35,133 nucleotides of DNA from IMG/VR virus record IMGVR_UViG_3300025101_000080, positions 1-35,133 of that record, one strand, 5' to 3'. The position numbers were made by a program, and so were the translations under genes. Numbering within the stretch: the first letter of the stretch is position 1; the number at the start of each line of letters is the position of its first letter. The notes below the pieces were generated by a model, which ran no database searches, was not told the DNA's origin, and worked only from the letters and a program-made list of their open reading frames with translations. The DNA comes from a virus. Shown one piece after another: positions 2,508-35,133 of this stretch.

Positions 2508-2681
2508 ATGCCAATGAATAAACAAACGAAGTTAATGTATGCCCTAGAGCACATTGATCATTTGTATGATTACATTGAAGGTAATGAAGATGAAAGGAAA
2601 CTTCGTGAACACTTAGTTTACCTTGATAGTGAATTAACTAAACAGATGTCCAAAGAACTTAAACGCAAACTAAACCGATGA
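2508..2681 (+). CDS. Small helical hypothetical protein, 57 residues
   Basis: An ATG at 2508 is preceded by AAGGAG and AAAGGA (2494-2505), one of the best ribosome sites in the window. A second in-frame ATG is at 2514. The product is 57 residues, highly charged, and predicted to be nearly all helix, with an EDERKLREHL stretch and a lysine/arginine-rich end (KRKLNR). Its stop overlaps the next start (ATGA). No family is recognised. Confidence 0.7.
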   Translation: MPMNKQTKLMYALEHIDHLYDYIEGNEDERKLREHLVYLDSELTKQMSKELKRKLNR

Positions 2682-3409
2682 GTACACTAATTGCCAATCT
2701 ACCCTCCTATGAAGTATGGGTAAGAAAAGAATACCTGACTGATCATAAGAGTGGTCATGGTGAATTTGTAAAGGGAGTATGGGTTGCTGCCAAGTCAATT
2801 CCCGGTAGGGCTTTTTACTTTGAAACCTATCTACCTGATTATGCTGCAATGTTCGATAAGTTACCAATCTCTGCATTTACAACTGATCCTGAGACTCCTA
2901 CACCGGATATGACATTACATAACCTGCAGTTTTGGAACTGTATGGACTATGGTGTAGTGGCAGTACAGAAGCAATTTATCGGTTCAATGCACTTTGAAGT
3001 GATGACAAGGGACTTTGGCAATCAAACAGGCACTTATATTTGTACTTTAGACAACTATCATGAGAGTGTAGACGCAATTGACTACTCTACAAGTGAACAA
3101 CCTGCTGAACACAAGTCTCATAACCTTTTAGAGCTGGATAATGGTCAGTTTTGCCTCTATCCAAACAACAGAATGAGGATATATGACAATAGTATTACAC
3201 CAGAAGAACCAAAAGTGCCCGATTTTAAGGTATCAACAGTATATTATCAGGTTGAAAACGGTCATGACCGTGATGGATTGGGTTCAGAGGACAATTATTT
3301 CTGGAAAACATCAAAAGAACGCAAAAATGATGAAAATTGGGACTATGAAACGAATAATAAGTCATTTATAAAGAGTAAAGGTATCCCTTCACCCGAAGAT
3401 ATTGGATAA
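2678..3409 (+). CDS. Conserved-type cyanophage hypothetical protein, 243 residues
   Basis: This 243-residue soluble protein begins in an ATGA overlap with the preceding gene. The N-terminal 120 residues look like mixed beta and loop with many aromatic residues (YEVWVRKEY, FYFETYLPDY). The middle contains 'LELDNGQFCLYPNNRMRIYDNS', a beta-hairpin-like stretch. The last 60 residues are polar, Lys/Asp/Asn-rich and probably extended. No signal peptide or membrane segment is present, and I see no catalytic motif. The stop overlaps a GATAAATA sequence that may be a variant late promoter. Function unknown. Confidence 0.75.
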   Translation: MSTLIANLPSYEVWVRKEYLTDHKSGHGEFVKGVWVAAKSIPGRAFYFETYLPDYAAMFDKLPISAFTTDPETPTPDMTLHNLQFWNCMDYGVVAVQKQFIGSMHFEVMTRDFGNQTGTYICTLDNYHESVDAIDYSTSEQPAEHKSHNLLELDNGQFCLYPNNRMRIYDNSITPEEPKVPDFKVSTVYYQVENGHDRDGLGSEDNYFWKTSKERKNDENWDYETNNKSFIKSKGIPSPEDIG

Positions 3410-3431: not shown

Positions 3432-3572
3432 ATGGTAATTAAAGTGGATAAATCAGAAGAATTTAAGAAAAGTGGTCGTAAATTGATCAGTGAGTACGAT
3501 GGACATGAATATTACAAGGATGAAGAGGAAGAAAAACCTCAATTTTTAAGTGAAAATTCAGAAACTACATGA
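3432..3572 (+). CDS. Acidic small protein upstream of speD
   Basis: A 46-residue, strongly charged protein: a basic first half (KVDKSEEFKKSGRK), then 'EYDGHEYYKDEEEEKP', ending in polar residues. It has no membrane segment. Its TGA overlaps the ATG of speD (ATGA), so the two are probably translationally coupled. No family is recognised. The short length and acidic C-terminus make it likely disordered in part. Confidence 0.6.
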   Translation: MVIKVDKSEEFKKSGRKLISEYDGHEYYKDEEEEKPQFLSENSETT

Positions 3573-3919
3573 AAAACGTGAAAAATGCTCATATGGGCAC
3601 TCATTTATTAGTTGAAGTGTACAATGTACCCTTTGATAAGTTGAATAATGCAAAAGATCTTACAAATAAGATGTTAGCTGCAGTCAAAGCAGAAAAATAC
3701 ACCCTTTTAAACTGCTTTCTTCATAAATTTGAACCTCAAGGGGTGACTGTTAACCTTACACTTGCCGAAAGTCACTTTGCTTTGCATACTTGGCCTGAAA
3801 AACAGTGTGTTGCGTTCGATATTTTCACTTGTGGTAGCAAAAATCCCCGTTCACTTGCATGGTGGATACTAAATTACTTCGATTCTGATGATTACATTAT
3901 GAAAGACTTCGCAAGATAG
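3569..3919 (+). CDS. speD: SpeD-family pyruvoyl decarboxylase (S-adenosylmethionine decarboxylase type)
   Basis: This 116-residue protein belongs to the bacterial class 1b AdoMet decarboxylase family, normal size for the family. It makes decarboxylated AdoMet for spermidine synthesis after self-cleavage to a pyruvoyl enzyme. The cleavage motif 'AESHFALHTWPE' places the pyruvoyl-forming serine at S68, the processing histidine at H73 and the 'TCG' catalytic cysteine at C88, the same spacing as in the Thermotoga enzyme (S63, H68, C83). 'HKFEPQGVT' (52-60) is also conserved. The start at 3569 overlaps the upstream gene; M9 is an alternative. speD is a known auxiliary metabolic gene of cyanophages. 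Some SpeD relatives decarboxylate ornithine or arginine instead, so the substrate is not certain. Confidence 0.93.
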   Translation: MKNVKNAHMGTHLLVEVYNVPFDKLNNAKDLTNKMLAAVKAEKYTLLNCFLHKFEPQGVTVNLTLAESHFALHTWPEKQCVAFDIFTCGSKNPRSLAWWILNYFDSDDYIMKDFAR

Positions 3920-30907: not shown

Positions 30908-32578
30908 ATGGCATTAAATCCATTTTTTCTACAAGGATCACCCGGTGAACAAAGACTAATTCAAAGTCTGATAAATGAGCAGTTGCAAATTTATGGAGTA
31001 GAAGTTACTTATATTCCAAGAAAGTTTGTAAATAAACAATCCATAATCGAAGAAGTTCAATCATCAAAATTTGATGATAATTTTTTATTGGAAGCATATG
31101 TGAATACCTATGAAGGATATTCGGGTGCTGGTGATGTAATGACTAAGTTTGGTGTAAGTTTACGTGATGAAGTTACCCTTACAATATCTCAAGAAAGATT
31201 TACAGATTTTATTGCACCATTTTTAGATCCAAATGATTACGAATTAGGATCAAGACCTAGAGAAGGAGACTTAATATTTTTCCCACTTGGACAAAGATTA
31301 TTTGAAGTAAAATTTGTAGAGCATGAGAAACCATTCTATCAGCTTGGTAAGAATTATGTTTATGAACTACAATGTGAACTCTTTGAATATGAAGATGAAA
31401 TTATTGACACTTCTATTGATGAGATTGATACACAAGTCGAGGATCAAGGATTTATTACTACATTAAATTTAGTTGGATCTGGATCAACTGCAGAAGCATC
31501 TTCAACTCTTTCTCCTGTAGTTAGTGGATCAACTGGATATTTACGTTCAATTACAGTTCTTAATGATGGAAGTGGATACACATCGACTCCTACAGTCTTT
31601 ATATCGACTTCTAGAAGTGCTTCTGGTGTAAATGCTGCTGCAGTCGCTATAACGACCTCCAGAGGCGGTGTACAGTCGATTAAGGAACTTATACTAACAA
31701 ATGCTGGTGCAGGTTATACACAGGCACCTGATATCAATATAGTCGGTGGTGGTGGAAGTGGTGCAATTGCAACTTGTACAATTGAAAAAACTCAGAAAGG
31801 TGTTATATCATTTACAGTTACTGGTGATGGAACTGGTTACACAAGTATTCCAACAGTTACTATTCAAGGGCCACCGGGAGCAGGAACTACTGCAATTGGT
31901 GAAGCAGTAATTAATACTTCAAATAAACTACAATCCATTCGTGTCAAAAATCCCGGTATTGGATATGGTGTAACTGCACCTACAGTTACTATAGGTAATC
32001 CTAATATTATTACTGGTCGTGGTAACTTTGAACTCAACGATCTTGTTGTTGGTCAACAGTCAAATACTGAAGCAAGAGTTAAAGAATGGGATGCAGACAC
32101 TAAAGTTCTTAAGGTATCTAATGTAGGAATTGGTAGCACTGTTTCTGGATTTAGAGCTGGTGAAGAAATACGAATTCAAACAGGACTTCGTGATGATGGA
32201 CTTAGATTATACAAAGATATCTTTGTTGGATCAGGAGCAACAACTGGTACTCTTGGTATAACAACTACGAAGATTACTGGTATCAATACAACAGGAATAA
32301 ATGTAGGTACTGCACTATCTGAAGTTAGTGGAGTTATAGGTGCTGGAGTTACTGTTCTATCAATTCAACCAACTCAGATTACAATCAGTAGAACAAGTCT
32401 TAACGTTGCAATATCAACCATTACAGTTGCATTTGGATCGACATCATTCATCTCTTACAGCATACGTGAATATGACAAGAGAGATATATATGATAGTTAC
32501 AGCGATAACGACGAGTTTGAAACTGAGGCAGATGCAATCATTGATTTTGCAGAATCTAACCCATTTGGTACATTCTAA
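30908..32578 (+). CDS. 14: Neck protein gp14 with large repeat insertion
   Basis: The first 190 residues are T4 gp14: 'NPFFLQGSPGEQRLIQSLIN', 'VEVTYIPRKFVNK' and 'EVTLTISQERFTDFIAPF' with 'PREGDLIFFPLGQRLFEVKF'. The C-terminal 'YSIREYDKRDIYDSYSDNDE' and 'FAESNPFG' also fit gp14. Between them lie about 330 residues not present in T4 gp14 (256 residues): four GxGY repeats ('VLNDGSGYTSTPTVFIS', 'LTNAGAGYTQAPDINIVGGG', 'VTGDGTGYTSIPTVTIQG', 'VKNPGIGYGVTAPTVTIG') and further beta-rich sequence. The inserted domain probably projects from the neck. Stop shares a base with the gp15 start. Confidence 0.92.
   Translation: MALNPFFLQGSPGEQRLIQSLINEQLQIYGVEVTYIPRKFVNKQSIIEEVQSSKFDDNFLLEAYVNTYEGYSGAGDVMTKFGVSLRDEVTLTISQERFTDFIAPFLDPNDYELGSRPREGDLIFFPLGQRLFEVKFVEHEKPFYQLGKNYVYELQCELFEYEDEIIDTSIDEIDTQVEDQGFITTLNLVGSGSTAEASSTLSPVVSGSTGYLRSITVLNDGSGYTSTPTVFISTSRSASGVNAAAVAITTSRGGVQSIKELILTNAGAGYTQAPDINIVGGGGSGAIATCTIEKTQKGVISFTVTGDGTGYTSIPTVTIQGPPGAGTTAIGEAVINTSNKLQSIRVKNPGIGYGVTAPTVTIGNPNIITGRGNFELNDLVVGQQSNTEARVKEWDADTKVLKVSNVGIGSTVSGFRAGEEIRIQTGLRDDGLRLYKDIFVGSGATTGTLGITTTKITGINTTGINVGTALSEVSGVIGAGVTVLSIQPTQITISRTSLNVAISTITVAFGSTSFISYSIREYDKRDIYDSYSDNDEFETEADAIIDFAESNPFGTF
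31545..32010 (+). repeat. Four GxGY-type repeats inserted in gp14
   Basis: Four units of about 35-40 residues with consensus 'xxxGxGYTxxPTVxI' and Gly/Ala-rich linkers ('GGGGSGAIATCTIEK', 'PPGAGTTAIGEAVIN'). This is the clearest copy of the repeat family in the window. Confidence 0.8.
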
Positions 32579-33624
32579 TGTTAGGAACATATTACTATCA
32601 CGAGATACTTAGAAAGACAGTTATTGCATTCGGTACGCTGTTTAATGATATTCATATTCGACATCAAGATAATAAAGGAAAAGATATTAGTGATATGAAA
32701 GTTGCGTTGGCATATGGCCCAATGCAAAAGTTTTTAGCAAGAATTGAACAACAACCAGAGTTAAATCGATCAACACAGATTACTCTACCTAGAATGTCAT
32801 TTGAGATGACAAACATTACATATGATGCAACAAGAAAAGCAGGTATAACTCAAACATTTAAAGCATCTGATGGTAGTAATCTTCGTAAGGTGTTTATGCC
32901 TGTACCATACAATGTTGGATTTGAATTAAATGTATTGGTAAAATTAAATGATGATGGATTACAAATCGTAGAACAGATACTTCCATATTTCCAACCAGCA
33001 TTCAACTTAAGTGTTGATCTAGTAAGTGTGATTGGTGAGAAGAGAGATATTAGTGTTGTATTAGATAATATATCATTTCAAGATGATTATGAAGGTGATT
33101 TTGCAACTCGAAGAGCATTAATATACACTCTTAATTTTACTGCAAAGACATATCTATTTGGCCCTGTTGCAGATACTCCAGAAGGAATCATCAAAAAGGT
33201 TCAGTTGGATTACCATACAACTATGGACAAAGAGAATGCAAGAAGAGAACTCAGATACGTTACTACTCCACAAGCAGTCAAAGATTATGATAATGATAAC
33301 ACTGCTACATTAACATTTAACGTCAATACATCACAGGTTAGAATCAATGTAAATGATACGAGTGCATTTGCTGTAAAAGATAGAATTGTGATTGATAGTG
33401 AGGTAATGCAAATCAATGAAATACCTGATGCTACAACGTTAGCAGTGAAGAGAGGATTTAGTCGAACTATTAAGGCAGAACATATTGAAAATTCAAAAGT
33501 TAATAAATTAACTACAGCAGACGATGCTCTGATAGAAGTTGGAGATGATTTCGGATTTAATGAAACATCTAGCATCTTTACAGATTCATTACAATTTAAT
33601 CCTGCTACAAGGACAGACTCATGA
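32578..33624 (+). CDS. 15: Tail sheath stabiliser / tail completion protein gp15
   Basis: This 348-residue protein is T4 gp15, which caps the tail and joins it to the neck. 'LQIVEQILPYFQPAFN' is almost identical to T4 gp15, and 'YYYHEILRKTVIAFGTLFND' with 'TLPRMSFEMTNITYDATRK' also match. The first 235 residues cover the family length (T4: 272). The C-terminal extension (about 240-330) holds 'VNDTSAFAVKDRIVIDSEVM' followed by 'VKRGFSRTIKAEH', a module also found in the giant and 2393-residue proteins. ATGA overlap with gp16. Confidence 0.93.
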   Translation: MLGTYYYHEILRKTVIAFGTLFNDIHIRHQDNKGKDISDMKVALAYGPMQKFLARIEQQPELNRSTQITLPRMSFEMTNITYDATRKAGITQTFKASDGSNLRKVFMPVPYNVGFELNVLVKLNDDGLQIVEQILPYFQPAFNLSVDLVSVIGEKRDISVVLDNISFQDDYEGDFATRRALIYTLNFTAKTYLFGPVADTPEGIIKKVQLDYHTTMDKENARRELRYVTTPQAVKDYDNDNTATLTFNVNTSQVRINVNDTSAFAVKDRIVIDSEVMQINEIPDATTLAVKRGFSRTIKAEHIENSKVNKLTTADDALIEVGDDFGFNETSSIFTDSLQFNPATRTDS

Positions 33625-34061
33625 TGAACACAAACTTTGATGATATTGAAAAATCTTTAAATGTAGAAACGTCTATTGTCAAGAAAGAAGATGATAAACC
33701 AGAACTACCAAATGTTGCTCTGAAAAAGGATGATGTTGAGAAGGATTATAATTATACAAGAGGTCAATTGTATTCATTGATTGAAAAAGGCCAAGAGGCA
33801 ATCAATGGTATTATGGAACTTGCTGGAGAGAGTGCAAGTCCAAGAGCATATGAAGTTGCAGGTCAGTTAATTAAAAGTGTTGCAGATAGCACAGATAAAT
33901 TAATGGATCTTCAAAAGAAAGTGAAAGAAATAGATGAAGAAGGTGCAAAAACACAATCAAATGTAACTAATAATGCTTTATTTGTAGGTTCAACAACAGA
34001 ACTTTCAAAAATGCTAAAGAAAGGTTTTCTAAATAATAATGATTCAAAAACTGCAGAATGA
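33621..34061 (+). CDS. 16: Terminase small subunit gp16
   Basis: A 146-residue helical protein that fits T4 gp16 (164 residues), the small terminase that regulates DNA packaging. The acidic, disordered N-terminus (1-40) is followed by helices with 'YTRGQLYSLIEKGQEAINGI' and 'ARAYEVAGQLIKSVADSTDK'-like sequence (PRAYEVAGQLIKSVA here), ending 'TELSKMLKKGF', typical of cyanophage gp16. Two ATGs in a row (33621, 33624) are possible starts; the first overlaps the gp15 stop. It is in T4 order after gp15. Confidence 0.9.
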   Translation: MMNTNFDDIEKSLNVETSIVKKEDDKPELPNVALKKDDVEKDYNYTRGQLYSLIEKGQEAINGIMELAGESASPRAYEVAGQLIKSVADSTDKLMDLQKKVKEIDEEGAKTQSNVTNNALFVGSTTELSKMLKKGFLNNNDSKTAE

Positions 34062-35133
34062 TGAAATCCTGTAAAAAAGGATACTACTATTGCAACACTG
34101 AAAAAAAGTGTATGCCTATTCCTGACGGACATACTGTTCGTGATGATGGGTTTCTTATGAAAGAAGCAAAAGATGGTGATCACGAACCAGAGATGATTCG
34201 TAATCAATTGAAAACTGCAGGTAGAGCATCTAAACGCATTGAAAAACATTCTCGTAATAAGAAGAATTTCAAAGCGTGGGTTCAATCAAAGATAACTAAG
34301 GCATCTGATTACTTAGATACTGCTGCAGATTATCTTGATAGTAAAGAAGTGGAAGAGGCAGCAAATCCTGCACAGCAGGCTGCGATTGCCATTGATATGA
34401 AAAAGAAGGGTAAGAAACCAAAGAACATGAGCGAAGAGGGTCTTCGTGCGTGGTTTGGTAAATCAAGCGGAACTACTAAGTCTGGACGCAAAGTAAAAGG
34501 TTGGGTTCAAGTTGGTGGTAAGTATGACGGTAAACCTTGTGCTCGTCAACCCGGTCAGAAAACAACTCCTAAGTGTACCTCTTCATCAAAGAGAGCATCT
34601 ATGAGTGATAAGGAAAGAGATAGTGCAAGAAGAAGAAAGGTAGCAAAAGACCCTAATCAACCGCAGAAGTCAGGTGCAGCAGCACCAACAATGGTTTCAA
34701 CTGATCCAAAGAAAAAAATGAAAGAAGAATTTACAACATTACCTCTACAGTTAGAAATTCCTAAAACAAAAAGTGATTTCACTAAAGGTTTAATGTTCCG
34801 TGAAAGTTTAGAAGCAAATAGTGGTATGCTATTTGTATTTGATCGTATTGCACAGCAGTCATTCCATATGACTGAAACAACAATACCTCTTGATATTGCA
34901 TTCATTAAAGAAAACGGAATCATTGAGAGTATCAAACCATTAGAACCAAAAGATTCTAATCCAGTATATTCAGAGGGTGCTATTGAGTTAGCAATTGAAG
35001 TAAATCGTGGTTGGTTTGCAGAGAACAATATAGAAGTGGGCGATGAGTTGGTGGTGGAGTACATTGTAGAGGATCCAAAGGAGAAGTATCGTTCAGAAAC
35101 AGGAACTATTTTTGATATCATAAACGAAGTAAA
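34058..35133 (+). CDS. Cys-motif plus DUF192 domain protein, 3' end outside window
   Basis: The frame opens in an ATGA overlap with gp16 and has no stop before the window end (358 codons seen). Numbering from the ATG at 34058: residues 5-24 carry 'CKKGYYYCNTEKKCMPIPDG', a three-cysteine motif seen in cyanophage virion proteins. The middle is very basic; near residues 150-175, 'GGKYDGKPCARQPGQKTTPK' plus a Cys, with a Lys/Arg/Ser-rich stretch, looks like a small metal- or nucleic-acid-binding unit. Residues about 228-345 match DUF192 ('LMFRESLEANSGMLFVFD', 'FHMTETTIPLDIAFI', 'AIELAIEVNRGWFAENNI'). A link to packaging or the virion is suggested only by its place between gp16 and the expected gp17. 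Confidence 0.8.
   Translation, partial: MMKSCKKGYYYCNTEKKCMPIPDGHTVRDDGFLMKEAKDGDHEPEMIRNQLKTAGRASKRIEKHSRNKKNFKAWVQSKITKASDYLDTAADYLDSKEVEEAANPAQQAAIAIDMKKKGKKPKNMSEEGLRAWFGKSSGTTKSGRKVKGWVQVGGKYDGKPCARQPGQKTTPKCTSSSKRASMSDKERDSARRRKVAKDPNQPQKSGAAAPTMVSTDPKKKMKEEFTTLPLQLEIPKTKSDFTKGLMFRESLEANSGMLFVFDRIAQQSFHMTETTIPLDIAFIKENGIIESIKPLEPKDSNPVYSEGAIELAIEVNRGWFAENNIEVGDELVVEYIVEDPKEKYRSETGTIFDIINEV

Follow-up and report, generated by a model that had tools for sequence, protein, structure and literature searches.

The window analysed here is a whole stretch of 35,133 nucleotides of DNA from a marine, cyanophage-like virus. Its GC content was 34.9% and no tRNA was found in it. The last open reading frame (34058-35131, plus strand) comprises 358 codons and was still open at the window end, and its start overlaps the stop codon of gp16 (ATGA). 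The genes at this locus were as follows.

32578..33624, plus strand: gp15, tail sheath stabiliser, by profile matches (context)
33621..34061, plus strand: gp16, terminase small subunit (phrog_445, E 8.2e-55)
34058..35131, plus strand: gene for a mosaic virion-type protein of the T4-GC 119 / phrog_727 family, truncated 3' by the window end

The phrog_727 match of this last gene, referred to below as the cassette gene, had an E value of 8.8e-39 and covered residues 60-251. The order gp13, gp14, gp15, gp16, cassette gene is that of T4-like cyanophages, for example S-SM2, in which the order was the same but two small extra genes were inserted. Farther upstream, before the baseplate genes of the window, positions 2678-3409 matched a PHROG labelled 'ferredoxin' (phrog_3704, E 3.2e-111) with no match in Pfam or PDB, and positions 3569-3919 were assigned to S-adenosylmethionine decarboxylase by PHROG (E 2.8e-31) and by Pfam (AdoMet_dc).

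A preliminary description of this DNA had expected gp17 to follow the cassette gene, had proposed reading past position 35133 and had named a misassembly as a possible source of error. The IMG/VR contig L010 was identical to window positions 31719-35133 at 3406 of 3415 bases and extended 777 bases past the window end, with the cassette gene still open in the same frame, indicating that the gene at the window end is not a misassembly. For gp17, 57 loci of relatives offered 300 or more bases downstream; the gene was there in 52, as expected, directly next in 48, and was not found in 5. For gp16, 62 loci offered 300 or more bases upstream; it was there in 50, directly next in 32, and was not found in 12, and it was thus present without adjoining the cassette gene in 18 of 50 loci. 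Tail-fibre-like genes intervene at the locus in many relatives, and the gp16-gp17 interval is a reported insertion hot spot, according to the available portion of PMC3037559. The P-SSM4 family member lies elsewhere, downstream of a cytidyltransferase gene, with no terminase within the 8.4 kb shown. The linkage to terminase described earlier is therefore common but not fixed.

Cassette composition of the protein and its relatives

When IMG/VR was scanned with the DUF192 portions of four phage proteins, 521 stretches encoding a relative were obtained. The best 80 of the 521 were examined, a choice that is biased to close relatives and in which near-duplicates (e.g. L023/L024) were left in; 49 of these 80 were complete from stop to stop, with 523-1041 codons. 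The window protein consists of the following cassettes, with their occurrence in the 49 complete relatives where counted.

34058..34168, plus strand: N-terminal Cys cassette, C5-x6-C12-x5-C18, ending near M-K-E (40 of 49)
34169..34366, plus strand: helical coil cassette of the AWVQSKITKASDYLD type, ending near V-E-E (22 of 49)
34367..34435, plus strand: short spacer cassette ending M-S-E (missing from some relatives)
34436..34726, plus strand: basic W/Cys cassette (EGLRAWFGKS..DPNQPQKSG), net charge +17, ending M-K-E (41 of 49)
34727..35074, plus strand: DUF192 (PF02643) cassette, net charge -13 (HMM and fold match)
35075..35131, plus strand: post-DUF192 segment ending I-N-E (read on in L010)

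The next cassette, of the WPSAYASG type, starts beyond the window and was seen in L010. The Cys motif, basic middle and DUF192 of the preliminary description were all recovered (C5-x6-C12-x5-C18; net charge +17 over residues 127-223 of the window ORF; E 3.9e-26). The view of a three-part protein stood insofar as these parts are present; the number three was partly an effect of truncation, as relatives carry three or more further cassettes C-terminal to DUF192, and the coil cassette and spacer separate the Cys motif from the basic part.

The complete relatives were strings of about 7-9 recognisable cassettes, mostly basic and often with Cys, most of them with basic tails, and had a median net charge of +38. 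The WPSAYASG cassette was present in all 49 and the R-x-WNC end in 48, followed by the CWxGY (39), TGN (26) and CMH (23) cassettes; DUF192 occurred in 49 of 49 by selection. The C-terminal tail was DUF6321-like in 31 proteins and another basic tail in 16. The two commonest orders comprised seven and eight cassettes (13 and 8 of the 49 proteins, respectively). These counts and orders indicate that the protein is a mosaic and does not have three parts.

An AlphaFold2 model of the window ORF (37 sequences) gave pLDDT values of 66-76 for the Cys cassette block (residues 1-30) and 71-84 for DUF192 residues 271-330, with all remaining blocks, including the first part of DUF192, below 60. No nuclease or packaging family was found for the window ORF in Pfam, PHROGs, NCBIfam or PADLOC, and PADLOC gave no defence-gene match for this ORF or for L021. 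A HEPN match in the coil cassette (E 0.16) was below the cut-off and was rejected.

The window protein matched 362 phage records. A search of phage records with DUF192 alone gave 10 matches, five of them from cyanophages (two records of S-SM2, two of Bellamy and one of SynMITS9220M01) and five from distant non-cyanophages. Besides the 521 IMG/VR stretches, three cultured cyanophages therefore carry DUF192 in this protein. In all three cyanophages the gene lies directly before gp17 and encodes the basic domain DUF6321 (PF19846) at its C-terminal end, a part of the protein that lies beyond the end of the window; the S-SM2 relative matched the window protein with E 3e-82, the match covering 78% of the query. 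Three of the five distant records were examined: in Eggerthella phage LE2-3, DUF192 alone forms a 115-codon gene, with a terminase gene on the opposite strand at a distance of about 0.5 kb, in virus Rctr197k it lies within a 435-codon gene, and the third record lacks annotation.

Seven family members examined, from S-T4, S-CAM9, P-SSM4, S-SKS1, S-SM1, S-SCSM1 and S-B43, were without DUF192. The flanks of the DUF192 slot in S-SCSM1 (KKKVKE / MTEGKDKKGKGSG) and in L010 (KKKMKE / INEVKDKKGKGSG) were alike, and DUF192 therefore looks like a swapped cassette; it is an optional cassette of this protein family. The preliminary description had regarded homologues with the domains in separate genes and unlinked to terminase as evidence against its view. 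Separate genes were found in L098, where the Cys cassette and DUF192 are split into two adjacent genes, but both still lie between gp16 and gp17. In this contig gp15, gp16 and gp17 are beside the cassette genes. L097 and L098 are filed under archaeal and gammaproteobacterial MAGs, and both carry this phage gene.

The DUF192 domain

DUF192 is a widespread domain whose function is unexplained. In the window protein it spans residues 231-332, with E 3.9e-26 and a score of 91.5 bits, where the gathering cut-off is 27. A model of DUF192 alone (AlphaFold2, mean pLDDT 75.7) matched the folds of 3pjy (Z 14.5) and 3m7a (Z 12.7) over 112 residues each, and a weaker fold match was the Synechocystis protein 5h3k (Z 8.0). 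Fold neighbours at Z of 5 or below, sugar-binding modules included, were set aside. A chain of the trypanosome mitoribosome large-subunit assembly intermediate (PDB 7aoi chain XH, 6yxx/6yxy chain EH) also matched the DUF192 fold (Z 8.7-9.5, 21-23% identity) and is a possible lead to the function of DUF192.

The phage domain has SFHM where FWM is usual, and the His was present in 23 of 23 aligned phage sequences. When genome contigs were scanned for DUF192, 97 relatives were obtained and 80 kept. At the FWM position these 80 loci had Trp in 64, His in 2 and other residues in 3, and the pattern was not found in 11; the two His loci were L097 and L098, both carrying the phage gene. Below these two hits came spirochaetes, SAR86 and others with 36-49% identity. 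Since the patterns of the genome scan favour phage-like letters, no origin of the domain is claimed. A hydrophobic stretch within 60 residues before DUF192 was present in 71 of the 80 genome loci, a count that includes L097 and L098. No signal-like stretch was seen before the phage DUF192.

A viral cytidyltransferase-like protein in BFVD (A0A218MMM0_2) has a model that holds a DUF192 match (35% identity, TM 0.66). Judging from this model, a second virion-associated protein may also carry DUF192; neither of two phage-type DUF192 motifs was found on the forward strand of any of 64 cytidyltransferase loci.

Indel junctions and capsid-targeting starts

According to the available portion of PMC9026906, the site of T4 gp21 is L/I-x-E, cleaved behind the Glu, and in gp22 the cut is at Glu-Ala. 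Breakpoints in the cassette protein were collected from an all-pairs alignment of the best 80 relatives as internal indels of at least 12 residues that had good flanks on both sides. This gave 147 distinct breakpoints. For 89 of them the end of an [ILVM]xE motif was no more than 3 residues away, compared to 11% of random positions, which were taken outside DUF192. Within 2 residues the motif was found at 50% of breakpoints (null 8%), and other shapes were rarer: [ILVM]E 18%, [ILVM]xxE 27%, [ILVM]xxxE 20% and Ex[ILVM] 19%. Motifs based on K or D showed little or no enrichment. After similar junctions had been merged into 28 clusters, 12 were mostly at [ILVM]xE versus 2.1 expected. The linkers of 77 of the 80 proteins (three lacked an anchor and were left out) contained on average 9.4 [ILVM]xE motifs versus 5.3 after shuffling, and 74 of the 77 were above expectation. 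Furthermore, Ala followed the E in 25% of 228 [ILVM]xE contexts versus 5% of 631 other E contexts. In their letters the junctions thus resemble the L/I-x-E site of the T4 prohead protease.

Glutamate was also enriched on its own. At about 81% of breakpoints an E in any context lay nearby (null 26%), and at about 48% an E that lacks ILVM two positions ahead of it (null 21%). Relative to its own null, [ILVM]xE was enriched 6.4-fold, EE 6.3-fold, [ILVM]E 5.4-fold and [ST]xE 4.4-fold. Of all linker E contexts, 27% had ILVM two positions before the E, 26% had it two positions after and 21% three positions before. The results for EE and for hydrophobic residues after E make the specificity of the motif weaker. 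The strict T4 motif [IL]xE accounted for 4 of the 28 clusters versus 1.0 expected. The control genes gp14, gp15/16, gp17 and gp18 gave 0 usable breakpoints and a fibre gene gave 1, leaving no cross-gene control, so that the nulls were drawn from the same proteins. DUF192 itself contains [ILVM]xE, and its folding must protect it if the protein is cut at such motifs.

A pattern for T4-like capsid-targeting starts was drawn after SSM2_108, L098 and L009 had been seen, and SSM2_108 is therefore not an independent hit. In T4 the pattern was found in 2 of 26 genes read, exactly ipII and ipIII (start MKTYQEFIAE), and missed ipI. In annotated cyanophage genes it was found in 8 of 126, compared to 0.096 expected by shuffling. 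In S-T4, S-CAM9, S-SCSM1 and S-B43 the gene with such a start immediately follows the cassette gene, in S-SKS1 it is the second gene after the cassette gene, and SSM2_108 directly precedes the cassette gene. In P-SSM4 the starts belonged to the cytidyltransferase and PSSM4_158, and in S-SM2 the cytidyltransferase had the sole one among 52 genes in the stretch. With the P-SSM4 protein as query, 64 cytidyltransferase loci were obtained, of which 58 were judgeable; in 55 a Met fitting the pattern preceded the enzyme core. The cassette protein had no targeting start in any of 64 relatives with a 5' end, and none of 117 candidate starts in the window fitted the pattern. In L098 the Cys cassette belongs to a gene starting MKKFRDFLKE.

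The positions noted for targeting starts, which are like that of T4 IPIII, are L002:4288, L005:6500, L006:6772, L008:5330, L091:5359, L092:5286, L007:872, L007:3206, L242:32762 and L009:2171; in these marine T4-like phages the starts belong to small genes at the gp16-gp17 locus and to the virion cytidyltransferase. Internal targeting-like stretches (SFQDFQE, SWQQFSE) were present just before the CW cassette in L090:23537-25024 and L009:4995-5711, looking as though a gene with a targeting start had become part of the mosaic.

Probable place in the virion and possible function

The virion role suggested in the preliminary description gained support from records and papers on relatives. SSCSM1_29, the S-SCSM1 relative, is labelled 'virion protein' in GenBank, and mass spectrometry of CsCl-purified S-SCSM1 virions gave 45 proteins, according to the available portion of PMC9602691. 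The S-B43 relative is labelled 'structural protein', with no basis given. In the S-SM2 stretches examined, 11 genes carry the note 'similar to Synechococcus phage S-SM1 protein' (gp3, 13, 14, 15, 18, 19, 20, 21, 23, the cytidyltransferase T4-GC 190 and T4-GC 119); apart from T4-GC 119, the genes so marked are all virion genes. The note was absent from 12 genes for which S-SM1 nevertheless has clusters (gp16, gp17, gp22, uvsY, uvsW, gp55, gp47, gp46, GC 139, 142, 146 and 363). In P-SSM4 the S-SM1 note was on T4-GC 190, 119, 425 and 426. Virion mass spectrometry of S-SM1 gave 41 proteins, T4-GC 190 and gp21 included (PMC3037559, available portion). We infer that the note marks the S-SM1 virion set, which would place T4-GC 119 in the virion. 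These labels and mass spectrometry records concern relatives without DUF192 and speak for membership, not for a place within the virion. Taken together, it is likely that the cassette protein belongs to the virion.

Taking the observed architecture, locus, modular exchange coinciding with [ILVM]xE and DUF192 fold as the starting point, the reading we prefer, at a probability of about 0.46, is that the cassette protein is a polyprotein of the head interior that the prohead protease cleaves and that brings basic peptides and DUF192 into the head along with the DNA. The Ala after E, the median net charge of +38 and the targeting starts of nearby genes and of the virion cytidyltransferase also count in its favour. 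The gene product is probably a virion protein and may be cut during head maturation; for head location and cutting by themselves the odds fall slightly short of even. The protein would be made together with the neighbouring structural genes and would enter the prohead with the scaffold core, where a gp21-type prohead protease would cut between cassettes at [ILVM]-x-E. The basic cassettes would bind DNA, and DUF192, with its net charge of -13, would be an optional folded cargo. The basic peptides and DUF192 would then remain with the packaged DNA and enter the host with it. T4 internal proteins are delivered together with packaged DNA. We hold more tentatively that marine T4-like phages carry a rapidly shuffling head polyprotein with prohead-protease sites as cassette borders, from which proteolysis would release small basic Cys peptides and DUF192 for injection with the genome. 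Against the head-polyprotein reading count the missing targeting start, the general glutamate enrichment at junctions, and the rarity of strict [IL]xE, which would require Val and Met to be accepted at the putative site.

These points leave some room for an uncleaved structural protein of the neck, tail or head surface, whose Glu-rich junctions would be flexible linkers tolerant of shuffling. The gene sits among neck and tail genes, tail-fibre-like genes occupy the same locus in many relatives, the virion labels are silent on position, and E and EE are also enriched at breakpoints. However, plain linkers would not be expected to favour ILVM exactly two before E, nor Ala after E, and the high basicity and tiny Cys modules fit DNA contact better than a tail role, so that we consider this explanation somewhat unlikely. 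Less likely still is that DUF192 acts as a metabolic or host-modifying protein that is produced during infection and packaged only incidentally. The genome relatives would suit such a role, being mostly short proteins in which a stretch of signal or membrane type precedes the domain (71 of 80 loci). The phage form, however, is part of a larger virion-type protein encoded among structural genes, has no visible signal-like stretch and carries His in place of the Trp of most genome relatives. The nuclease-associated or DNA-packaging role proposed in the preliminary description, as an accessory working with gp16/gp17, would agree with the position between these genes in most testable loci and with the start overlapping the gp16 stop. 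It is very improbable, as no family match in Pfam, PHROGs, NCBIfam or PADLOC pointed to it, the interval is an insertion hot spot (PMC3037559, available portion), P-SSM4 has the family elsewhere and gp16 is not directly next in 18 of 50 loci. A misassembly or chance ORF, which the contact of the gene with the contig end might suggest, is negligible given the near-identical, extending L010 contig and the 521 IMG/VR stretches with relatives.

The T4-GC 119 family, the gp16-gp17 hot spot (PMC3037559, available portion) and DUF192 were already known. In the literature searched, nothing was found on DUF192 in such a phage protein or on DUF6321, and no paper joined phage polyprotein, prohead protease and internal proteins; a search for capsid targeting together with cyanophage matched only PMC9026906 and gave nothing on targeting in cyanophages. 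The earlier hope that the context could help explain DUF192 is borne out as to where the domain is carried and not yet as to its action. The virion setting gives DUF192 a place, partners and a time of action in culturable phages, which makes its role testable; if injected, its target in the host would be an early one, cytoplasmic or at the envelope. If true, the shuffling of a head polyprotein at protease sites would be a new route by which phages swap packaged cargo. Furthermore, a capsid-targeting start in marine phages could possibly allow packaged, injected proteins to be predicted from sequence.

The closest known proteins are the T4-GC 119 / phrog_727 members SSM2_109, SynMITS9220M01_097 and Bellamy gp123, which share cassettes with the window protein and have DUF192 67.6-69.4% identical to its own; they differ in N-terminal cassettes and length, and in the window gp16 is directly upstream. 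Compared with the usual DUF192/COG1430 proteins (PF02643; 3pjy, 3m7a), the phage copy shares the HMM and the fold over 112 residues but is embedded in a long virion-type protein, lacks a signal-like stretch and has SFHM. The cassette protein differs from the T4 internal head proteins in being a single long mosaic chain with no targeting start and with putative cleavage, and resembles T4 IPI, IPII, IPIII and gp22, as described in the available portion of PMC9026906, in that basic proteins or peptides are linked to gp21-type sites.
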